From: Candidatus Sulfopaludibacter sp. SbA3
GTDB taxonomy: Bacteria; Acidobacteriota; Terriglobia; Bryobacterales; Bryobacteraceae
Length of the DNA stretch: 64,000 nt
Reading direction: 5' to 3'
NCBI GenBank assembly: GCA_945890485.1
Contig: CAMDCN010000004.1
Coordinates: 1-64,000, forward strand
Shown: positions 23,688 through 51,637 of the stretch, piece after piece
Numbering within the stretch: position 1 is the stretch's first letter
Layout of the letters: each line of letters opens with the position of its first letter
The notes under the pieces: generated by a model
Databases searched by the model: none
Told to the model about the DNA's origin: nothing
What the model saw: the letters and a program-made list of their open reading frames with translations, nothing else
Translations under genes and position numbers: made by a program

Positions 23688-24457
23688 GTTATTCCGCTTT
23701 GCTCTACCATGTCGAAGAGCGCGTCGCGAAGATCACCCTGCACCGTCCGGAGAAACTGAACGCGTGGACGACGGCGATGGACGCGGAGTTTCGCGCGGCG
23801 GTGGCGGCGGCGGCAGCGGACGCAGAGGTGCGGGTGATTGTGGTGACGGGCGCGGGGCGGGGGTTTTGCGCCGGGGCGGATATGAGTTTGCTCGAGTCGC
23901 TCGCGGCTTCGGGAGCGGCGGTGGATCTGCCGCGGCAGTTTCAGTTCCTGCAGGCATTGGAGAAACCGGTGATCGCGGCGATCAATGGACCGGCGGTAGG
24001 GCTGGGGCTGATCCTGACGCTGCATTGCGATTTACGTTTCGCCTCGCAGGAGGCTCGATTCGGCACGGCGTTTGCGAAGCGGGGGTTGATTGCCGAATAC
24101 GGGATGGCTTGGATGCTACCGCGATTGATAGGGCACGCGAACGCGCTGGATATCCTGCTTTCGGCTCGGATTTTTGATGCCGGAGAGGCGCTGCGGATGG
24201 GACTGGTGAACCAGGTGTTCCCTGCCCCGACGTTCCTGTTCGATGTGATGGCGTACGCACGGCAGTTAGCCACGGAGGTCTCACCGCGGTCAATCGCGGT
24301 GATGAAGCGGCAGGTGTATCAAGGCCTGACGCAGACCTTCGACGAAGCCGCGGCCGTGGCGGAGCAGGAGATGCTACTGAGCCTGCAGTCGGAGGATTTC
24401 AAAGAAGGGGTGGCGCATTTCCTTGGGAAACGGCCACCTTCATTCACCGGACGCTAG
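23684..24457 (+). CDS. Enoyl-CoA hydratase/isomerase family protein
   Basis: A 257-residue crotonase-fold protein. The oxyanion-hole segment VTGAGRGFCAGADMSLLESL and PVIAAINGPAVGLGLILTLHCDLRFAS are clear. AKRGLIAEYGMAWMLPRLIG supplies the single glutamate characteristic of many isomerase-type or promiscuous members (classical hydratases have two). Probable role: fatty-acid or aromatic-acid beta-oxidation. Its start overlaps suhB (ATGA) and its stop overlaps the convergent arsA by four bases. Confidence 0.9.
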   Translation: MSYSALLYHVEERVAKITLHRPEKLNAWTTAMDAEFRAAVAAAAADAEVRVIVVTGAGRGFCAGADMSLLESLAASGAAVDLPRQFQFLQALEKPVIAAINGPAVGLGLILTLHCDLRFASQEARFGTAFAKRGLIAEYGMAWMLPRLIGHANALDILLSARIFDAGEALRMGLVNQVFPAPTFLFDVMAYARQLATEVSPRSIAVMKRQVYQGLTQTFDEAAAVAEQEMLLSLQSEDFKEGVAHFLGKRPPSFTGR

Positions 24458-26115
24458 CGGCGTTGCTCCTGCCAGCCGATGAGGGCGACGTGGCGGGCGT
24501 GTTTGCTGCGGACCTCTTCGATGTAGACCTCTTCGCGGATGGCCTTGGCCTTGAGAACAGGATCGGTAGTTCCGGTAAGGCCGAAGCACTGGTTCACCAC
24601 CCACGCCCACGGTTCGATACCGGCGCGGCGGAGGTCCTCCTGGAGGCGGGCGGCTTCGTGGACAGGGGTCGCCTCCGGGAGCGCGACGAGGATGACGCGG
24701 GTGCAGTTGGGGTCCCGAAGGCGAGGGAGCAGTTCGCGGACCGCCTCCGGCGTGTCGCCGGCGGAGCGGGAGACTTCGCGATGGTAGGCTTCGGCAGCGT
24801 CAAGGAGCAGAAGGGTATGGCCGGTGGGGGCCGTGTCGAGAATGAGGAAGCCGTTGGTACCTTCGGCGACCTTATCGGCAAAGGCGCGGAAGACAGCGAT
24901 CTCTTCAGTGCAGGGAGAGCGAAGGTCCTCCGCGAGGAGATCGCGGCCACGCTGGTCGAGGCCGGCCCCCGCTTTCTCGAGCACTTCTGCGGAGTAGCGT
25001 TGGGTTTCGACGGCCGGGTCGATGCGGCTGACGGTAAGGCCGGGGACGGGACTGCGAACGGCGTCGGCCACGTGGGCGGCGGGATCCGTGGTGCTGAGAT
25101 GAACCTGGTGGCCGCGGACGGCGAGTTCAATGGCGATGGCGGCGGCGACGGTGGTCTTACCAACGCCACCTTTCCCCATGGTCATGACGACGCCGTGGCC
25201 TTGGCGTTCCAGAGCTTCAATGAGAGTGGTGAGGGTCTCGTCCGGCGTCCATAGGCGGCGGAGGTTGGCGAGGCCGATCAGCGGGAAGGGTTGAAGTGGG
25301 AGTTCCCAGCGCGGCAGCGCCGCCAGTTCCGGCGGGAGGCCGGAGAGGGCGGTGGCCATGCGGGCTTCGAGAGCCATGGCGGTGCGGTCATTCCGATCGG
25401 TCGCCACGAAGAGACCATTGACGGCGAGTTCGACGTGGTGGAGCCCCGCTTCGGCAAGTTCGCCGCGGGTGCGTTCGGCTTCCCGGATGGCGGAGCGTTC
25501 GGGACGAGTGACGAGAATGACGGTGGTGATGCCAGGATCGGAAAGCGCCGCCAGGCTGTCGCGATAGAGCTCTTCCTGGGCCTTGAGGCCGGCGAGAGGA
25601 CCAAGGCAAGAGGTGCCGGTCGAGTTCGTTTCGAGGAACTCGGTCCAGGCGCCGGGAAGCTGGAGGAGGCGGAGGGTGTGGCCAGTGGGCGCCGTGTCGA
25701 AGATGACGTGATCGAAATCGGCGGTGGCGGCGGGATCGGCGAGGAGTTTGGTGAACTCGTCGAACGCGGCGATCTCGACGGTACAGGCGCCGGACATTTG
25801 CTCTTCCATGCTGCGGACCGCGGCTTCAGGGAGGATCCCGCGATAGGGGCCGACCATCCGTTCACGATAAGCCGCGGCGGCGGACTCGGGATCGAGATTG
25901 ACGGCGGAGAGACCTGCCAGAACAGGACGGCGGTCGCTGCCGAGTGGGGTTTCAAGGACCTCGTCCAGGTTCGAGGCAGGGTCCGTACTGACCAGCAGCA
26001 CGCGTTTGCCCTGATCAGCGAGGGCAACGGCCACACTGCAGGCGAGCGACGTCTTGCCGACGCCGCCCTTTCCCGTGAAGAGTAGAACCCTGGTGAGCGC
26101 TTTCCAATCCCGCAT
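24454..26115 (-). CDS. arsA: ArsA, arsenite-stimulated ATPase
   Basis: A 553-residue protein with two homologous NTPase halves. Each has a deviant Walker A (GKGGVGKTS near residue 15, GKGGVGKTT near 315) and the switch motif DTAPTGHTL. The three arsenite-binding cysteines of E. coli ArsA are conserved by motif: SGACTVEIAAFDEF, SCLGPLAGL and SPCTEEIAVF. It should accept As(III) from ArsD and drive extrusion; no ArsB or Acr3 permease is present in the window. ATG 26115 shares a base with the upstream stop (TGATG), so it is translationally coupled to the arsM-arsD fusion. The stop overlaps the hydratase gene by four bases. Confidence 0.95.
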   Translation of the reverse strand: MRDWKALTRVLLFTGKGGVGKTSLACSVAVALADQGKRVLLVSTDPASNLDEVLETPLGSDRRPVLAGLSAVNLDPESAAAAYRERMVGPYRGILPEAAVRSMEEQMSGACTVEIAAFDEFTKLLADPAATADFDHVIFDTAPTGHTLRLLQLPGAWTEFLETNSTGTSCLGPLAGLKAQEELYRDSLAALSDPGITTVILVTRPERSAIREAERTRGELAEAGLHHVELAVNGLFVATDRNDRTAMALEARMATALSGLPPELAALPRWELPLQPFPLIGLANLRRLWTPDETLTTLIEALERQGHGVVMTMGKGGVGKTTVAAAIAIELAVRGHQVHLSTTDPAAHVADAVRSPVPGLTVSRIDPAVETQRYSAEVLEKAGAGLDQRGRDLLAEDLRSPCTEEIAVFRAFADKVAEGTNGFLILDTAPTGHTLLLLDAAEAYHREVSRSAGDTPEAVRELLPRLRDPNCTRVILVALPEATPVHEAARLQEDLRRAGIEPWAWVVNQCFGLTGTTDPVLKAKAIREEVYIEEVRSKHARHVALIGWQEQRR

Positions 26116-27242
26116 CAGCAACAACCTTTCGGAGCGAGGACGTTGAGTTCGACGGGGGCGTGCAGGCTGAGGCCGGCCCACTTGGCGAGCGTGAAGCGGA
26201 CCGGATACTTGCCTTGGCTGCGGACCTCGCCGTCGACGAGAATCATCGGCAAGCAGGCCGTGCCGTCAGCGGCGAGAGCAGCCTGCACCGCCGGGGCCGC
26301 GACAAAGGCCGCGGGAGCCTGTGACAGGTTGTAACGCTCGACCGTGATCCCTTGTGTTCCGAGCCAGTCGAGGTCGGCGGAGAAGCGGGCCAGGACGGGA
26401 TCGACCGAGGGGCCACAGACGCCGGAGGAGCAGCACATGGCGGGGTCGTAGACCTGGACCTTGACGCCGGAGGGCTTGCGGGCACGCACAAACATGCTCG
26501 CGAAGAGACCGTCGACGGCGCCGGGAGCGATGTCGTCGGCGGCGTAGATTCGCGTCGGCTCCAGGTCGATACCGGCGAAACCGGCGGCGGCGAGTTTGGC
26601 GCGGTAGTCATTCTCTTCGAGGGCCCCGGAGACGCAACTGGACCAGAGTTCGGAGTTCGCGCGAATGGCATCCGGCATTTCGCCGCGGACGACGATATCG
26701 GAGATCGCCCAGCGGCCGCCGGGCTTCAGCACGCGGAAGGCCTCGCGAAGAACCTGGTCTTTGTCGGCGGAGAGGTTGACGACGCAGTTGGAGATGATGA
26801 CGTCGACGGAGGAATCCGGGAGCGGGATGTGCTCGATATCACCTTTGAGGAACTCGACGTTCGTGGCGCCGGCTTTGGCTTGATTCTCGCGGGCGAGGGC
26901 CAGCATCTCGTCGGTCATGTCGAGGCCGTAAGCCTTGCCGGTGGGGCCGACGCGGCGGGCTGAGAGAAGGACGTCGATGCCGCCGCCGGAGCCGAGGTCA
27001 AGAACGACTTCGCCTGGCTTGAGTTCGGCAAGCGCGGTGGGGTTGCCGCAACCGAGGGAGGCGAGCCGGGCAGCGAGAGGGACCTCGGAGGACTCCTCTT
27101 CGGAGTATAGATTGCTGGTGATGGCGTCGGCTTCGGGGAATTCAGTGGATGCGCTGCAGCAGCCGGTGGCGCCGGACTGAACACGGAGGGCTGCGGCCGC
27201 GTAGCGTTCCTGGACGAGTTGTTTGGTTTCGCTGGCGTTCAT
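26115..27242 (-). CDS. ArsM-ArsD fusion: arsenite methyltransferase joined to arsenic metallochaperone
   Basis: A 375-residue fusion. Residues 1-258 are ArsM, which methylates As(III) with SAM: motif [13 protein letters not shown] (80-90) and the three catalytic cysteines C65 (SLGCGNP), C153 (SNCVVNLS) and C203 (SSCVSGAL). Residues 261-375 are ArsD, the chaperone that hands As(III) to Ars[17 protein letters not shown] with C270, C271 and C276, then LPMILVDGE and a terminal Cys-Cys. All key residues are kept, so both halves should be active. ATG 27242 was chosen for the ArsM N-terminus; a -10-like GATGAT ends seven bases upstream. The stop overlaps arsA (TGATG). Confidence 0.93.
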
Positions 27243-27302
27243 ACTTCGATCATCGCAGAAATACCGAATCCAGTCAAGCGCTATTTCTGGTATTATCGAA
27301 AT
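27243..27302. promoter_or_regulatory. Divergent ars promoter region with inverted repeats
   Basis: Sixty bases separate the arsM-arsD and arsR starts. Arms 27245-27262 and 27283-27300 are inverted repeats matching at 15 of 18 positions. Reading outward, each arm ends in a -10-like hexamer followed by a start codon: TATTAT (27291-27296) six bases before the arsR ATG, and GATGAT on the minus strand seven bases before the arsM-arsD ATG. The minus strand also shows TTGACT 17 bases upstream of GATGAT. Binding of ArsR dimers to both arms is inferred. Confidence 0.6.
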
Positions 27303-27638
27303 ATGCCGCAGAAGCACGTTCCGCCGGATCCTGAGCGATTTGCGTCGATGTTCGCCGCCCTAGGGACAGGGGCGCGCCTTCGCATTGTGCGGCTTTTGCT
27401 GGCGGCGCATCCGACGGGGTTGGTGGTGAGCGAAATCCAGAGTGAGTTGGGGATTCCGGCTTCGACGCTTTCGCACCATTTAGACAAGTTGCGGCAGCAG
27501 GGATTGGTGGCGGTGGAGCGGCAGGGTACCTTTCTCTGGTACCGGGCGAACCAGGATTCGCTGCGGGAGTTGTTGGACTTTCTTTACGCGGAGTGCTGTA
27601 CGAGGACTTCGGCGAGCAGGAAAGTACAGTCGTCCTGA
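27303..27638 (+). CDS. arsR: ArsR-family arsenic-responsive repressor
   Basis: A 111-residue winged-helix repressor: FAALGTGARLRIVRLLL, then VSEIQSELGIPASTLSHHLDKLRQQGLVAVERQGTFLWYRA. The classical ELCVC sensor is absent. Instead a vicinal pair C98-C99 sits in the C-terminal helix (YAECCTR), like the C95/C96 sensor of Acidithiobacillus ArsR; the third cysteine of that site is not seen. ATG 27303 gives the normal length, while an upstream in-frame start would cross the promoter. It is divergent from the arsM-arsD/arsA operon. The 3' end overlaps the convergent phosphatase by 55 bases. Confidence 0.93.
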   Translation: MPQKHVPPDPERFASMFAALGTGARLRIVRLLLAAHPTGLVVSEIQSELGIPASTLSHHLDKLRQQGLVAVERQGTFLWYRANQDSLRELLDFLYAECCTRTSASRKVQSS

Positions 27639-28465
27639 GGGACGTGGGCTTCGGCGAAGGATTCAAACGCACGGAGGAGGCGGTTGCGCACTTCGGGGAG
27701 TTCGTCGCGGTCGCTATCGGCGAGAAGCTCGGCTAGGCGGTCGTCACCCCACAGATCGCCGGACTGGTTTGCGAGTTCGGTGACGCCGTCTGTAAACAGG
27801 CAGAGGCGGTCACCGGGTTGGAGGTGGAGCGAACCTTGGTCGTAGCGAATATTTTTGCGGACGCCGAGCGGGAGGTTGGCGACACCGGGGAGGTCCGGGG
27901 TGAGGACGGGGATCCAGCCCGAGGATTGTTGGCGGAGGAGGAGCGGCGGATGGCCGGCGTAGGCGAAGTAGAGGTTGCCCTCCTGTTGATGGAAGCTGAG
28001 GATGGCGGCGGTGCTGATGGCTTGGAAGCCGCGGTCGACAACGAGATCGTTGAGGCCGGCGAGGATGGTGGCGCCGTCAAGGGAGTTCATGCTTTCGAGC
28101 AGGAGAGCGTATAGCCATTCACTGATGGCGAGCACTTCGCGACCGTGGCCGCGGACATCGACGATGGCGATGCGGGTGAGGATGTCGTAGGAGCAGACGC
28201 TGAGGTAGTAGATGTCGCCGCCGCCTTCGCCTTCGGCCGATCGGGAGTAGATGCTGGCGGTGAGTCCGCGTGTGCAGACATCCTGAACGATACCTTTGAC
28301 GCCGCCCCAGATCTCGGCGCATTGGATGTGGTGTGGCATGTGACTGTTGAGGTATTCGCTGACGGAGACAGATCCGTTACGACCGAAAAAAGAATCGAGG
28401 GAAACGTTACCGCGTACCGGGAACCGGCGAAGTCTAGAGGCATCCAGACTCTGGATCAGGAGCAA
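27584..28465 (-). CDS. PP2C/SpoIIE-type Ser/Thr phosphatase
   Basis: A phosphatase of the SpoIIE/RsbU (PPM) family of up to 293 residues. GGDIYYLSVCSYDILTRIAIVDVRGHG holds the first metal-binding aspartates; YAGHPPLLLRQ, GDRLCLFTDGVTELANQSGD and the final QDDCTFLLAEV complete the fold. Such enzymes dephosphorylate anti-anti-sigma or signalling proteins. No receiver or sensor domain is attached. The start is uncertain: TTG 28465 gives the full frame shown, ATG 28339 (MPHHIQC) would leave 132 bases free for the bufferin promoter. It overlaps the arsR end by 55 bases. Confidence 0.8.
   Translation of the reverse strand: MLLIQSLDASRLRRFPVRGNVSLDSFFGRNGSVSVSEYLNSHMPHHIQCAEIWGGVKGIVQDVCTRGLTASIYSRSAEGEGGGDIYYLSVCSYDILTRIAIVDVRGHGREVLAISEWLYALLLESMNSLDGATILAGLNDLVVDRGFQAISTAAILSFHQQEGNLYFAYAGHPPLLLRQQSSGWIPVLTPDLPGVANLPLGVRKNIRYDQGSLHLQPGDRLCLFTDGVTELANQSGDLWGDDRLAELLADSDRDELPEVRNRLLRAFESFAEAHVPQDDCTFLLAEVLVQHSA
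28406..28431 (+). promoter_or_regulatory. Putative SigF-type ECF promoter of the bufferin operon
   Basis: GTTACC (28406-28411), exactly 16 bases, then CGAA (28428-28431). As recalled from published work, the Caulobacter SigF promoter is GTAACC-N16-CGAA, so one base differs. The bufferin ATG lies 40 bases downstream with AGGAG at 28458-28462. A matching element precedes the sigma gene at 30516. Promoter activity is inferred. Confidence 0.55.
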
Positions 28466-28471
28466 TAGAGC

Positions 28472-28858
28472 ATGACAAGACGTACCTTTGGAAATCGGAT
28501 TAGCGCGGCGCTGGCTGGAGTTGGCGCGGCGGCACTCATTCGTTCATCCGCGCAGGCGGCCGATAAGAAAGAAAAGCATGTCTGCAAAGGCATGAACGAG
28601 TGCAAGGGACAAGGGGGATGCAAGAGTGGCGAGGGCGGCGCGCCGGGCAAGAACTCATGCAAGGGCAAGGGCGGGTGCGCGACGGTGGCCAAGCATGAGT
28701 GCAAGGGACACAACGAATGCAAGGGGCAGGGCGGGTGCGCGAGCGGTGGGGGTGGCGCTCCGGGGAAGAACTCGTGCAAGGGCAAGGGCGGCTGTCAGGT
28801 TCCCCTGAAGGCTAAGCAGACGCTCCGGCGGCGCCGGTCCGCAAGCCAGGAAGTCTAG
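28472..28858 (+). CDS. bufA2: Bufferin-type metal-binding RiPP precursor with duplicated Cys unit
   Basis: A 128-residue small protein. Residues 1-30 are a leader with twin arginines (TRRTFGNRISAALAGVG) ending at AQA-A, so the core is exported. The core has ten cysteines at 38, 44, 50, 63, 69 and 77, 83, 89, 102, 108, in CKGxNECKGQGGC and GKNSCKGKGGC blocks. The second five repeat the first with a period of 39 residues. This composition, with the DUF692 and DUF2063 genes downstream, marks a BufA2-like bufferin: a periplasmic copper-sequestering RiPP whose cysteines are modified by the MNIO enzyme. The tail is basic (LRRRRSASQEV). AGGAG precedes the ATG by nine bases. Confidence 0.85.
   Translation: MTRRTFGNRISAALAGVGAAALIRSSAQAADKKEKHVCKGMNECKGQGGCKSGEGGAPGKNSCKGKGGCATVAKHECKGHNECKGQGGCASGGGGAPGKNSCKGKGGCQVPLKAKQTLRRRRSASQEV
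28577..28810 (+). repeat. Two-copy 117-bp in-frame tandem repeat inside the bufferin gene
   Basis: Unit 1 (28577-28693, residues 36-74) and unit 2 (28694-28810, residues 75-113) encode the same pattern of five cysteines with only conservative changes outside it. All five cysteine spacings agree exactly with a 39-codon period. This indicates duplication of a single ancestral metal-binding unit. Confidence 0.9.
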
Positions 28859-28869
28859 GACGGGGCGGA

Positions 28870-28907
28870 GCGAGCCGGCCAGTTGAAGAGACCGCTGGCT
28901 GGCTCGC
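28870..28907 (+). terminator. Intercistronic hairpin between bufferin and MNIO genes
   Basis: GCGAGCCGGCCAG (28870-28882) pairs with CTGGCTGGCTCGC (28895-28907): 13 bp including one G-U, with a 12-base loop. A weak T-run (ATTTTA) follows ten bases later, just before the MNIO start. It could act as a partial terminator or as a 3' stabiliser of the precursor mRNA, raising precursor over enzyme. Function is inferred. Confidence 0.6.
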
Positions 28908-28925
28908 CCTGACGCAGATTTTACT

Positions 28926-29756
28926 ATGGCGAATCGATGGCAGCTTCCGGATCTGGGATTCGGCGTAGGGCTACGCAGTGTTCACTGGGCGCACATTCTG
29001 CGCGAACAGCCGGCGGTGGACTGGTTTGAAATCCTCTCGGAGAACTACATGGATACCGAGGGGCGACCGACGTACATGCTGGACCAGATTGCGGAGCGCT
29101 ACCCGATCGTGATGCACGGGGTATCTCTGAACGTAGGGAGCACCGGAGCCCTGGACCGGGAGTATTTGCACAAGCTGAAGCAGTTGGCGCGGCGGACGCG
29201 GGCGCGGTGGGTATCGGACCATTTGTGCTGGACGGGGGTGGCGGGAATCAACACGCATGACCTGCTGCCGATGCCGTATACGGACGAATCGCTGCGGCAT
29301 GTGGCGGGGCGGGTGCGCCAGATTGCTGACATCCTGGAGCGGCCGGTGGTGCTGGAGAACCCGTCGACGTATCTGGAGTTCACGGCTTCGACGTGGCGGG
29401 AATGCGATTTCCTTACAGCGCTGTGCGAAGAGTCCGGATGTGGGCTGCTGCTTGATGTGAACAACGTCTATGTGAGTTCGTTCAACCATGGGCTTGACGC
29501 GGCGGAGTACATCGACGCGCTGCCGGTCGACCGGACGGTGCAGATTCATCTGGCGGGACATACGAACCATGGGACGCACATCCTCGATACGCATAGCGAC
29601 AACGTGATCGACGCGGTGTGGGCTTTGTACCGGAGGGCGACGTCGCGGATGGGACGGGTATCAACTCTACTCGAATGGGACGAGGCGATTCCCTCGTTTG
29701 ACGTGGTTCATGCCGAGGCGTTGAAGGCGCGGGAGTGGTTGCCGGATGCGAAGTGA
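28926..29756 (+). CDS. bufB: MNIO (DUF692) multinuclear iron RiPP-modifying enzyme
   Basis: A 276-residue TIM-barrel protein of the DUF692/MNIO family, iron-dependent oxidases that modify cysteines of RiPP precursors. The start [16 protein letters not shown] and the ligand-bearing segments [70 protein letters not shown] and THSDNV are all typical. The expected substrate is the bufferin encoded 67 bases upstream, with the DUF2063 protein as partner. The stop overlaps the DUF2063 start by 11 bases, so the two are coupled. Confidence 0.93.
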
Positions 29757-30519
29757 ATTGCAGGAGCTGCAGCGATGGATGCAGAGGAGCATTGTAGCCG
29801 GAGAGGAGTTGGACTCTGCCGCGAGCCTGATTCTGCCATCGGCGACACTGAGTCCGTTGGAGCGATTGAATCTTTATCGCGGGATGTATGAGGCGCGGCT
29901 GGTTGAGGCTTTGCGCACGGACTATCCGGGGCTGGTGGCCTTGCTTGGCGAGGAGGTGTTCACCGAGTTGGCGGGGTTCTACATCGAAGCGCATCCTTCG
30001 CGGTCGCACACCTTGAACCGTTTAGGAGATCGGTTGCCGGAGTTTGTCGCCGAGGTGGAGGGACTGCGCCGGGCCGGGATGGTGCAGGACTTGGCGCGGC
30101 TGGAGTTGATGGGAACGGAGGTCTTTGACGAACAGGAGACGTCCGCAGCGGAGTTCCCGCGGACAGCGGGGATGGCGGAGGCGGAGTTGGGTGAGTTACG
30201 GTTTTACACGATCCCGGCCTTGCGGTTGGGTTCGTTTCGATATCCGGTTCACCGATACCTGGCGGCGATCCGGACTGGAGGGATCGCGCCGCGGATACCG
30301 GCCCGGCCAACACGGCTGGCGGTGTTCCGGCGCGACTTCCAAGTGCATCATCTGGTGCTTTCTCCGGGGGCCGCAGCGTTGTTGGGGGCGCTGGCCTCAG
30401 GAGAGGCGTTGGGCGCGGCGATGGAGAAATGTCCAGAGCTGCGCCCGGCGGCGGTGTTTCGTCATTTCCAAAACTGGTCCAGCATTGGCCTGTTTCAGCG
30501 AATCGCCTTGCCCGCGTAA
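29746..30519 (+). CDS. bufC: DUF2063 protein, partner of the MNIO enzyme
   Basis: A 257-residue DUF2063-family protein. The N-terminal helical half carries [22 protein letters not shown] and [28 protein letters not shown], with [19 protein letters not shown] following; the C-terminal half is the leader-binding-like region ending [20 protein letters not shown]. In other bufferin and MNIO operons this protein is thought to present the precursor to the enzyme. The ATG overlaps bufB by 11 bases. A SigF-type motif begins only a few bases before its stop and leads into the sigma gene. Confidence 0.9.
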
Positions 30520-30541
30520 CTAAAAAGTCGCCGGTGTCGAA
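30516..30541 (+). promoter_or_regulatory. Putative SigF-type ECF promoter of the sigma gene
   Basis: GTAACT (30516-30521), 16 bases, then CGAA (30538-30541): one mismatch to the remembered Caulobacter SigF consensus GTAACC-N16-CGAA. It ends eight bases before the sigma GTG, so the message could start at or next to the start codon. It parallels the element before the bufferin gene and suggests autoregulation. Confidence 0.55.
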
Positions 30542-30549
30542 CGGAAACT

Positions 30550-31128
30550 GTGTTGAACCACAACCTGCCGGCCCGCCCCTATCCCGAGTTGGATGGGGCG
30601 CATCTGAAAGAGCTGATGCTGCGCTACCAACAAGGGGATGCACACGCGGCGGACGAATTGGTGAGCCTGACGACGCCCCTTTTGTCGAGATATCTCTATG
30701 CGACCTCCATGCGCGCGCTTAATCTCGACGACCTGCTGCAGGAGTGCTGGCTGCGGATCCATCGGGCGCGCGGCAGCTACGAACGAGGAGAACCGGTACT
30801 TCCCTGGTTGCTCGCCATCGCGCGGCATACGCGGGTGGACTTCTTCCGGAAGTGGCAGCGGACAGCAGGCAGGGAGCTGGAGCTGCCGGAGACCGTCCGG
30901 ATGCCGGACGCGAAAGGCGATACGATGCAGGCGAAGAACCTGATGAACCTTATCAGCACATTGCCGGAGGGGCAGCGGGAGGTGATCGTGTTGCTAAAGC
31001 TAACCGGGATGACGGCCGAGGAGGTGGCGCGCGCAACGGGTTCCACGGCGGGAGCAGTGAAGCAGAAAGCGTATCGGGCATATCAGGCGATCCGGCAAGC
31101 GATGAACTCTGAGCAGGAGCCGGAATGA
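30550..31128 (+). CDS. ECF sigma factor of the SigF/bufferin type
   Basis: A 192-residue sigma-70 family protein of the ECF class. Region 2 spans about 22-92 (GDAHAADELVSLTTPLLSRYL, then LNLDDLLQECWLRIHRARGSY and PWLLAIARHTRVDFFRK). Region 4 spans about 125-185 (LPEGQREVIVLLKLTGMTAEEVARATGSTAGAVKQKAYRAYQAIRQ). It resembles the sigma factor that drives bufferin genes in Caulobacter under metal stress. Start GTG 30550 (TTG 30553 possible); no convincing Shine-Dalgarno. The stop overlaps the anti-sigma ATG (ATGA), the usual sigma/anti-sigma coupling. Confidence 0.93.
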   Translation: MLNHNLPARPYPELDGAHLKELMLRYQQGDAHAADELVSLTTPLLSRYLYATSMRALNLDDLLQECWLRIHRARGSYERGEPVLPWLLAIARHTRVDFFRKWQRTAGRELELPETVRMPDAKGDTMQAKNLMNLISTLPEGQREVIVLLKLTGMTAEEVARATGSTAGAVKQKAYRAYQAIRQAMNSEQEPE

Positions 31129-31859
31129 ACTGTGACGGCGTAAACAAATGGCTTGCCGAAGGAGCGCCGCAGGGGGACTTGGGCGAGGCGGCGCACGCGC
31201 ATGTAGTCGGCTGCACCGAGTGCCGGGCGCTTTGGGAACTCCTTGAGGAGCCGATTCCAGCGCCGTTGACCTTGCTGCCGCGGCCTCCGGAGTTATGGCA
31301 GGCCGGCGCGGGCGTCGCGGTAGTAGCGGCGGCGGCCATCGGGTTAGCTGTGGCGGTGCGCGGCGGTCCGGGTTGGGCGGCGTTGGACGCGGAGGAGCGC
31401 GTGGCCATAGGCGCCTATGTGGCCTTGTTGCTGGGCCTGCTGACCGTGGCGCTCTGGCGGTTTCGGCGGCCGGCGGGGATTCAACCGGTCGCGCCGGGAT
31501 GGCTGTTGGGAGGCGTGGCGCTGGGCTACCCGGTGCTCGCCGGGGCGCTCTTCGCCTCGCGCTCAGCGGGCGGTATCGAAGAGAACGGATGGAGCTGTTT
31601 GTCGATCGGCTTGAGTGTATCGTTGGGCTCGGGCACCGCGCTTTGGGGCCTTGCGCGGCGCGGGTACCGGGCCGAACGGGTCTGGCTCGGGGGGGTGCTG
31701 GGGGCGGTGGGAGGATTAGTGGGGGTTACGGCGCTGCAGGTGATCTGCCCCGACCAGCATGCGGGACATGTGGCGGTTTGGCATGGGTTAATCGGCTTGG
31801 TGAGTGTGGCGGGCGGGGCGGCGGCAGGTTGGCTGGCATGGAGGCGCGCGGCATGCTAA
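31125..31859 (+). CDS. Anti-sigma factor: zinc-finger N-terminus plus NrsF-like six-TM domain
   Basis: A 244-residue membrane protein. Residues 1-40 hold C3 and H26-x3-C30-x2-C33, the ZAS anti-sigma zinc motif. Residues 58-240 form six membrane helices. The last two helices resemble NrsF (DUF1109): C158 in NGWSCLSIGLS, and C208 in ALQVICPDQHAGHVAVWHGLIGL. The two cysteines are exactly 50 residues apart, the same distance as the functional C131 and C181 of Caulobacter NrsF. It should hold the ECF factor inactive and release it when metal or oxidant reaches the periplasmic cysteines. The ATG overlaps the sigma stop (ATGA). Confidence 0.85.
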   Translation: MNCDGVNKWLAEGAPQGDLGEAAHAHVVGCTECRALWELLEEPIPAPLTLLPRPPELWQAGAGVAVVAAAAIGLAVAVRGGPGWAALDAEERVAIGAYVALLLGLLTVALWRFRRPAGIQPVAPGWLLGGVALGYPVLAGALFASRSAGGIEENGWSCLSIGLSVSLGSGTALWGLARRGYRAERVWLGGVLGAVGGLVGVTALQVICPDQHAGHVAVWHGLIGLVSVAGGAAAGWLAWRRAAC

Positions 31860-31869
31860 AGTTTCACGC

Positions 31870-32334
31870 ATGCCAAGTTCCGTGTCCACCGTAGACGAGT
31901 ATCTCGCTTCCCTTCCCGAAGACCGGCGCACCGCAATTGAGGCGGTGCGGCAAGTGATCCTCGCCAACTTAGACGGGGGCTATGCCGAAGGAATGTCATA
32001 CGGAATGATCGGTTACTTCGTGCCGCACACGGTGTTCCCACCCGGATACCATTGCAACCCAAAAGATCCGCTTCCGTTCGCAGGACTGGCTTCACAGAAG
32101 AACCATATGTCTTTGTACCTGATGTCGCTGTATTTGGGCGGCGACGGCGAGGAAGACAAGTGGTTTGAGACGGAGTGGACCAAGTCCGGTAAAAAGCTAG
32201 ATAAAGGGAAGGCTTGCGTCCGATTCAAGAAGTTGGCGGACCTGGACCTGCGCGTCATCGGCGAGGCGGTGCGGCGCATGCCCTCCCAACGTTACATCGA
32301 ACTCTACCAGAGTGTACGCAAAGGGAAGAAATAA
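31870..32334 (+). CDS. DUF1801 protein
   Basis: A 154-residue cytosolic protein of the DUF1801/YdhG-like superfamily: VDEYLASLPEDRRTAIEAVRQVI, then a GYAEGMSYGMIGYFVP segment and QKNHMSLYLM with a lysine-rich GKACVRFKKLADLDL end. Biochemical role unknown; related frataxin-like folds bind iron, but no such evidence exists here. ATG 31870 lies 11 bases after the anti-sigma stop, and its TAA directly precedes the GTG of the next gene, so it may belong to the bufferin transcript. Confidence 0.85.
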   Translation: MPSSVSTVDEYLASLPEDRRTAIEAVRQVILANLDGGYAEGMSYGMIGYFVPHTVFPPGYHCNPKDPLPFAGLASQKNHMSLYLMSLYLGGDGEEDKWFETEWTKSGKKLDKGKACVRFKKLADLDLRVIGEAVRRMPSQRYIELYQSVRKGKK

Positions 32335-50629: not shown

Positions 50630-51637
50630 TTACTCAGGGAGTGTGGCGGCAATGCGTTTCGGGTCAAAACGTTTTAAAGTCTTTTTGTTTTGGTCGAACA
50701 GCCAAAGTGCAGTGGCTCCCGTGTACAGGTCGCCGTGGCCGAGGCCGGCAAACTGCTGAGAAACCTTATCGGTAGCTGGATTGATGCGGGTGATGGGGAA
50801 GCCGGGTGCAGAAACCCAAACCGAGCCTTCGCCGAACGCGATAGAGCCCTCGGCATTGGGGATGCCGGTTTCAATGGTGGCGCTGACCTTGTTGGTTTTG
50901 GGGTCGATGCGAACGACTTTCCCTTCCTTGCGGGAGAGGACCCAGAGGGTGCCTTCACCGAAGGCCTGGGCAACCGGCTCGACGACCTCAATGCGCTGCG
51001 TGACCAAGTTGGTTTTGGGATCGATCCGGAGGACGCGACCTTCCGCAGGGCAGGTAACCCATAGCGAAGTCTCGGCGAACTGCAGGGTGGTGCACTTAGT
51101 AGGCAGCCGGAGCTCGCTGACAACGGCGTTTTGGTCGGGGTCGATGCGCGAGAGAGTGGTCTTATCGTCAGTGAGTAGCCAGACACTATCGGGGTTTGAG
51201 GCTACGGCCCGCTTGGCGGTGCCAGTGCCGGTTCCGATGGTGGCGGTAACTTTGCCTGAGCGCGGGTCAAGGCGGACGAGCGCCTTGTCACCGCAACTGG
51301 CGACCCAGTAAGAGCGGAAGGCATTGATAAGGCCGCCGCAAGGTTCCTTGATCCCGGACCAAGGGTCGTTGAGCTTGTTGGCCTTGGTATCGAGACGGAA
51401 GATGGCGTTCTCGGGGCCATTCGGTAGAAAAGCCATGTCCGCGAAGAACATGGCGTGAGGAGCGCCGGAGACCGGGAGTTCGGCCTCCGACTTCAGGTTC
51501 GTAAAGGGAATCTGGATGCCAGGAGTTTTGATTCCGGCAGCCGGGGGCGGCAGAGTCGCCCCCTTTTTGCTGGGCTTCTGCGCCTCGGCCTGGAGTAGAC
51601 CGAGGGCGAAGAAGCAGAGGTAAGCAACTGGTTTCAT
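50630..51637 (-). CDS. Secreted YncE/Vgb-like beta-propeller protein
   Basis: A 335-residue exported protein (signal MKPVAYLCFFALGLLQAEAQ). At least six repeats of the form (V/L)xRIDPxTNKV with xxTIxTGxxPxxI-like spacing build a seven-blade propeller, as in YncE or virginiamycin B lyase relatives (RIDPKTNLVTQRIEV, RIDPKTNKVSATIETG, INPATDKVSQQF). The lyase active residues are not evident. A structural or binding role in the cell envelope is likely. It ends six bases before... the receptor gene lies directly upstream with a six-base gap (51638-51643), so it follows the TonB receptor in one transcript. Confidence 0.82.
   Translation of the reverse strand: MKPVAYLCFFALGLLQAEAQKPSKKGATLPPPAAGIKTPGIQIPFTNLKSEAELPVSGAPHAMFFADMAFLPNGPENAIFRLDTKANKLNDPWSGIKEPCGGLINAFRSYWVASCGDKALVRLDPRSGKVTATIGTGTGTAKRAVASNPDSVWLLTDDKTTLSRIDPDQNAVVSELRLPTKCTTLQFAETSLWVTCPAEGRVLRIDPKTNLVTQRIEVVEPVAQAFGEGTLWVLSRKEGKVVRIDPKTNKVSATIETGIPNAEGSIAFGEGSVWVSAPGFPITRINPATDKVSQQFAGLGHGDLYTGATALWLFDQNKKTLKRFDPKRIAATLPE

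Follow-up and report, generated by a model that had tools for sequence, protein, structure and literature searches.

The stretch of DNA analyzed here, referred to as the window, comprises the first 64 kb of contig CAMDCN010000004.1 of Candidatus Sulfopaludibacter sp. SbA3, and our subject is a bufferin operon in it that adjoins the genes of an extracytoplasmic function (ECF) sigma factor and its putative anti-sigma factor. The source genome is coded G000; the genomes of relatives carry G numbers and their loci L numbers. Five genes lie in the same direction on the forward strand, namely bufA (28472..28858), for a Buf2-like precursor of 128 amino acids; bufB (28926..29756), for the MNIO maturase; bufC (29746..30519), for a DUF2063/RRE-type partner protein; the ECF gene (30550..31128); and a gene for a membrane anti-sigma protein (31125..31859), in which an N-terminal, ZAS-like HxxxCxxC part precedes a six-helix, NrsF-like part. 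As a first-pass annotation, made from the sequence alone, had noted, the starts are coupled, bufB and bufC overlapping by 11 nucleotides and the ECF and anti-sigma genes by ATGA. The same annotation proposed a self-contained bufferin system with its own ECF/anti-sigma pair, which is borne out by the shared promoters and conserved synteny described below, but the extent had to be revised: a stand-alone gene for a SpoIIE-type (PP2C) phosphatase, which diverges from bufA (27584..28339, reverse strand; PF07228, 109 bits; likely ATG at 28339) had been left out, and the unit is larger, reaching left to include it. The promoter-like site of bufABC (28405..28431, forward strand, CGTTACC-N16-CGAA) stands back to back with that of the phosphatase gene (28355..28380, reverse strand, GTAACG-N16-CGAA, of the sigma-F type), and the site of the ECF gene (30515..30541, forward strand, CGTAACT-N16-CGAA) includes the stop codon of bufC. 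The start of the ECF gene, a GTG only 8 nucleotides past the -10 element, is not certain.

BufB passes the NCBIfam model for bufferin maturases (NF050167, 358 bits against a cut-off of 310; PF05114, 355.6 bits) and shares its cluster with a DUF2063 partner, a pair of genes expected of a Buf2 bufferin cluster; in the PDB, it matches DUF692 and MbnB structures. BufC matches PF09836 (71.9 bits; cut-off 27.2) and PF22106 (27.7 bits), and no PDB relative of it was found at E <= 0.001. The ECF protein scores above cut-off for sigma-70 regions 2 and 4 (PF04542 and PF08281). Absence of a DoxX gene, also stated in the annotation, was confirmed within 5 kb of bufB by tblastn with an acidobacterial DoxX as query. 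The source genome (7.1 Mb, 35 contigs) holds one MNIO, one BufA2 and two NrsF genes. Comparison with the nearest relative, G001, revealed purifying selection on every gene tested, dN being lowest in bufA (0.029; dS 0.465; dN/dS about 0.06; 95% identity) and highest in the anti-sigma gene (0.163; dS 0.854; dN/dS 0.19). The locus is indeed real and conserved, and is built from known parts.

Promoter-like motif and layouts of the locus

Within the window, the motif CGTWACY-N16-CGAA matches exactly twice, at positions 28405 and 30515, whereas shuffled versions of the window gave a mean of 0.07, with two or more matches in 0 of 100 shuffles; the annotation's claim of one motif at both units thus stands. 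The mapped sigma-F site of Caulobacter is GTAACC-N16-CGAA (PMC3511200) and the ECF16 consensus is (T/C)GTAAC-N17-CGAA (PMC8315932). Judged by this agreement, the window motif corresponds to the published sigma-F/ECF16 promoter, and it stands, as in SigF systems, before both the sigma gene and a presumptive target gene. A third exact hit of the GTWACY type in the window, at 51054, lacks the preceding C, lies within open reading frames, and was taken as chance.

Relatives of the ECF gene were gathered from public genomes, and the best 80 of 130 were used; 77 are named as Acidobacteria or groups within them, and L194, L216 and L223, which carry other taxon names, may be misbinned. The motif was counted in 79 of these loci, one having too little upstream DNA. 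It occurred within 300 bp upstream and on the same strand in 45 of the 79, the reversed pattern in none, and random windows of the same loci contained it in 306 of 16000 cases. The base preceding the motif, which is outside the search pattern, was C in 89%. In some of the 34 loci without a match (L180, L182, L184, L187, L234), the ECF gene comes third in its operon, with the motif placed further upstream.

Twelve acidobacterial loci, ten of them among the best 80 of 130 ECF relatives, join this ECF family to bufABC, and they do so in four layouts. In type A, the gene order of the annotation, bufABC is followed by the motif, the ECF gene and the anti-sigma gene; it was found in the window, in G001 (L176) and in G006 (L177, cut by a contig end). 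In type B (L016 of G011, L180, L182, L184, L187), bufABC is divergent from an operon for an FAD oxidoreductase, a NapH-like protein and the ECF factor, with the motif on both sides. Type C (L199, L208) has the motif, ECF, anti-sigma, bufABC and doxX in this order, and type D (L210 of Bryobacterales bacterium F-183, and L225) has bufABC and doxX followed by the motif, ECF and anti-sigma. The annotation had reasoned that its proposal would fall if the sigma pair clustered elsewhere in related genomes. BufB was detected at E <= 1e-60 in four of 19 genomes of the genus, and in all four the close copy (at least 74% identity) shares its contig with an ECF gene of this family, so that the proposal survives this condition; G006 contains an additional, distant MNIO (42% identity) with no ECF gene on its contig. 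In L016, the ECF frame (3-380) lacks the stretch after SYRPG and ends at the contig end, owing to either an assembly fault or a damaged gene.

In all eight type A/B loci, the motif occurs no more than 1000 bp upstream of bufB, at the same bufABC site as in the window, and it does so in only three of 60 other acidobacterial MNIO loci. These three are L097, L105 and L108; a sigF-like ECF gene is divergent from bufB in L097 and L105, and the precursors of L105 and L108 are of the Buf1 type. MNIO loci with other spacing, namely L059 (N17) and L101 (N15, other strand), were not counted. A second kind of sigma link is found in the family coded f4 (probably Acidobacteriaceae), where 11 of 13 fetched MNIO loci (L074, L075, L076, L078, L080-L085, L087) have an ECF/anti-sigma pair no more than 5 kb away from bufBC, as the window does. 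The f4 pair differs in comprising an RpoE-like ECF factor of another lineage and a soluble ZAS of 87 amino acids, with DoxX present and the sigma-F motif absent; the Buf2 motif was seen in 6 of the 11.

The phosphatase gene and the wider ECF family

The phosphatase gene keeps its place next to the ECF pair in G001, G006, L178, L179 and L181. Its promoter-like site has one and the same mismatch in the window and in G001, and is perfect in G006 (L015) and L179. In L178, L179 and L181, the phosphatase gene and the ECF pair are divergent from each other, with the motif at both and no bufABC between them; the ECF factors of these loci are sisters to the clade of the window (SH-aLRT 97), and no bufB was detected in their genomes, which may be incomplete, at E <= 1e-30. 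Therefore, bufABC was either inserted into, or lost from, a module of phosphatase, ECF and anti-sigma genes. Parts of partner-switching systems also recur near other members of the ECF family, as an FHA/GAF/SpoIIE-like phosphatase gene (L140, 1898-3580) lies upstream of one ECF/NrsF pair and a histidine-kinase-like ATPase gene (L141, 5412-5897; by eye of the anti-sigma kinase type) downstream of another.

In the ECF tree, from which L190 and L245 were dropped (their ECF frames end after 7 and 23 residues) and in which L178 was cut to 185 residues, the bufABC-linked factors fall on at least two branches. The source genome itself has a second ECF pair (G000:C18), where the motif is followed by genes for an FAD oxidoreductase, a NapH-like 4Fe-4S protein, the ECF factor and NrsF. 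This operon recurs in G001, G009 and G006, and the motif is present in three of the four genomes, the G006 copy being cut by a contig end. In the type B loci, this electron-transfer operon is combined with the bufferin operon in a single locus, the two being divergent. One idea is that the NapH-like protein might act as a cupric reductase in the manner of CcoG. Members in L139 and L142 adjoin AhpC/TSA proteins with a DsbD_N-like part, and the overall picture from gene content suggests a family devoted to metal and redox stress of the envelope. A divergent gene for a secreted repeat protein, which carries the motif in L193, L194, L203, L204, L212, L213, L217, L228 and L243, looks like another target of the family.

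Precursor and anti-sigma protein

The annotation had described a duplicated precursor; bufA is in fact a single gene with two internal repeats (104 nucleotides, 79% identical) of five cysteines each. The resulting total of ten departs from the 6 or 12 conserved cysteines of described Buf2 precursors (PMC12452194). An alignment of seven type A/B precursors, L016 being left out, showed that all seven retain C1, C2, C5 and C6 in both modules. Type A precursors lack C4, and L182, L184 and L187 lack both C3 and C4 in their first module; six-cysteine modules occur once in L016 and twice in L180, and four cysteines are kept in each of the four type C/D precursors. All seven aligned leaders start with MTRR.FG (MTRRTFG in the window), resembling a twin-arginine leader; the twin-arginine motif has RRxF at its core. 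The corresponding sequence is ITRRRFG in L016 and MNRRKFLMK in L261 and L262, and RRxF was counted by eye in six of 22 other Buf2-motif loci. Bufferins have been described as Sec-exported in a survey whose main text mentions neither ‘Tat’ nor ‘twin-arginine’ (PMC12452194).

The anti-sigma proteins were compared over 72 sequences from 81 loci, nine loci having no usable open reading frame, three of these through a too-short ECF frame. A scan of the C, H, W and P columns found C158, C208, H215, H220 and P116 (window numbering) to be invariant in all 72. The combination of ZAS-like and NrsF-like parts, one of the features that looked unusual to the annotation, is not confined to this locus, since an HxxxCxxC-like motif was present in 37 of the 72. 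An AlphaFold2 model (mean pLDDT 89) placed the sequence HVVGCTEC and three short helices in the N-terminal part, followed by six long helices; the N-terminal part had no Pfam ZAS match and no fold match in the PDB. The search with the model returned no PDB match at E <= 0.001, and the sequence gave only a chance hit (E 0.47). The six modeled helices and two conserved cysteines are among the features expected of SigF-NrsF systems. C158 is near the start of long helix 4, C208 just past helix 5, and both histidines, H215 and H220, in the opening turns of helix 6, such that all four residues would face the periplasm if the N-terminus is cytoplasmic, and may lie close together in space. The NrsF of Caulobacter needs its two conserved cysteines, answers Cr and Cd, and releases sigma-F upon replacement of C131 and C181 (PMC3511200); C158 and C208 resemble these in pattern.

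Regulatory model, alternatives and neighboring genes

The Buf1 clusters of Caulobacter (CC3252-CC3257; PMC3511200, PMC12452194), which are under sigma-F/NrsF, likewise comprise an MNIO, a DUF2063 protein, a secreted cysteine-containing precursor, an ECF sigma factor and an NrsF-type anti-sigma factor, with GTAACC-N16-CGAA at both units. The annotation's comparison to Caulobacter-type systems needs correcting, in that those sigma-linked clusters are Buf1 and the present one is Buf2-like, and here lies the real novelty. The present cluster further differs in that its precursor is not DUF2282, its anti-sigma protein has the extra HxxxCxxC part, DoxX is absent, and a SpoIIE-type phosphatase belongs to the unit; its ECF factor is also separated by a long branch from the Buf1-linked ECF factors of other acidobacteria (L097, L105). 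Buf2 (Buf_6/12Cys, BufA2) clusters share with the present locus the CKGxNxCKGxGGC-type precursor, BufB and BufC (PMC12452194), and the six-cysteine DUF692 clusters of Antarctic soil bacteria offer a further comparison of this type (PMC8692599), whereas the sigma/anti-sigma genes, the five-cysteine modules and the twin-arginine-like leader, Sec leaders being those described in the survey, set the locus apart. The ECF16 systems (SigF-NrsF, BcrS-AbcS, EcfF-OsrA; PMC8315932) share the promoter consensus, and their anti-sigma protein likewise has six helices and two invariant cysteines; here, the extra HxxxCxxC part and the putative targets, a Buf2 cluster and a phosphatase gene, are different. According to that survey, published in 2025, sigma/NrsF genes accompany Buf1 clusters and were not found in Buf2 clusters (PMC12452194). 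By their gene content, the present loci are exceptions to this rule, perhaps missed because their precursors score low, and the f4 loci are a second exception. Searches of openly licensed papers yielded none that describes a Buf2 cluster with a sigma factor, and the sigma wiring of a Buf2-type peptide, although made of known parts, looks new.

We consider it probable that the locus is an autoregulated, sigma-F/ECF16-like circuit of envelope stress with a Buf2-type bufferin as its output, and sigma-F-like control of the bufferin is well supported by sequence. In the unstressed cell, the ZAS-NrsF protein would hold the ECF factor at the membrane. A thiophilic metal, most likely copper, or an oxidant would act on the invariant Cys/Cys/His/His set at the predicted periplasmic face, and the released ECF factor would then transcribe its own gene, bufABC and the divergent phosphatase gene from the CGTWACY-N16-CGAA-type promoters. 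BufB and BufC would convert cysteines of BufA into thiooxazoles, and the exported peptide would buffer metal in the periplasm; the phosphatase probably forms a feedback or a side branch.

Several observations weigh against this model. Strict membership in BufA2 and NrsF fails at the curated cut-offs, as BufA scores 49.8 bits against 60 (NF050166) and the anti-sigma protein 22.1 against 26.8 (PF06532); for comparison, six linked precursors including that of the window score 27.9-58.3 bits, the unlinked L063 reaches 65.2, and relatives of the anti-sigma protein in L137, L139 and L141 score 44.8-59.6. The likeness to ECF16 is not an assignment by an ECF group model. The W and Y of the motif were picked after both window sites had been seen, and therefore the comparative test counts for more than the count in the window; moreover, the site of the phosphatase gene has the mismatch mentioned above. 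Genome-wide, GTWACY-N16-CGAA and its reversed control were found 40 and 34 times in G000, 46 and 20 in G001, 61 and 42 in G006, and 43 and 29 in G009. The motif alone is no predictor of targets, its whole-genome excess being little or moderate, and therefore no further regulon members are claimed. Finally, the motif was absent upstream of bufB in all four type C/D loci, and in all seven MNIO loci that are unlinked to an ECF gene in genomes holding the ECF family (four of these have Buf2 precursors, and in two the upstream sequence extends to only about 615 bp). Thus, most sampled acidobacterial Buf2 clusters lie outside the ECF circuit.

The type D loci, with no motif at bufA, and the many acidobacterial Buf2 clusters that have neither this ECF gene nor the motif are what one would expect if the ECF pair were a mere neighbor, another regulator ran bufABC, and the motif at bufA were chance or a relic. 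In type C, the missing motif would be accounted for by one transcript starting at the ECF promoter; in type D no motif supports ECF control of bufA. This explanation nonetheless seems very improbable to us, since the motif accompanies bufABC in every type A/B locus, whichever side bufABC lies on, and four different layouts recur. A different doubt concerns the peptide, which might be decaying, the loss of the fourth cysteine from both modules leaving it non-functional or differently used; the count of ten cysteines and the score under the BufA2 cut-off would fit. Such decay is hard to credit given the dN/dS of about 0.06 and 95% identity with G001, the retention of C1, C2, C5 and C6 in each module, and the occurrence of four-cysteine forms beside intact-looking bufBC in four type C/D loci. 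A further alternative concerns the signal, in that the circuit might mainly answer oxidation of periplasmic thiols or methionine (hypochlorite, peroxide, disulfide stress), with the peptide as a sacrificial thiol and not a metal buffer. Known ECF16 systems do control methionine-sulfoxide repair and sacrificial proteins (PMC8315932), and the same ECF family adjoins the FAD oxidoreductase/NapH-like operon and AhpC/TSA proteins; however, BufB scores as a bufferin maturase, and characterized MNIO-DUF2063 products bind copper (PMC13097082), so that we regard a mainly oxidative role as unlikely.

Returning to the model of a sigma-F-like bufferin circuit, bufferins have been described as a widespread bacterial answer to copper stress, and the present loci extend the link with a sigma-F-type circuit to Buf2-like clusters; four layouts and two or more branches of the ECF tree are represented. 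What NrsF senses becomes testable, the Cys/Cys/His/His set being invariant in 72 proteins beside an output expected to bind metal. The five-cysteine modules and RRxF leaders are two deviations by which the modification and export of bufferins can be probed, and the stand-alone phosphatase is a candidate new regulon member. A broader synthesis, which we offer tentatively and consider doubtful as a whole, is that acidobacterial Buf2 bufferins may form a sigma-wired, Tat-exported class of metallopeptides: modification of the precursor, and perhaps its folding or loading with metal, would take place in the cytoplasm before export; NrsF would read periplasmic metal through its invariant Cys2-His2 set; the phosphatase, under the same promoter class, would be a third arm; and in other Bryobacteraceae-type genomes, the same sigma family would connect the bufferin with the FAD oxidoreductase/NapH-like electron line, by which the metal or the peptide would be kept reduced.

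Two neighbors of the unit are also shared with G001. On the right, a DUF1801 gene (31870-32334) starts about ten bases after the anti-sigma gene in the same direction and may share its transcript. On the left, the unit adjoins an arsenic island (24454-27638), with the same genes at that place in G001; it contains an ArsR-type regulator gene (27303-27638, forward strand), a gene for a fused methyltransferase-ArsD protein (26115-27317, reverse strand) and, judged by the look of its sequence, one for a double ArsA-like ATPase (24454-26181, reverse strand).

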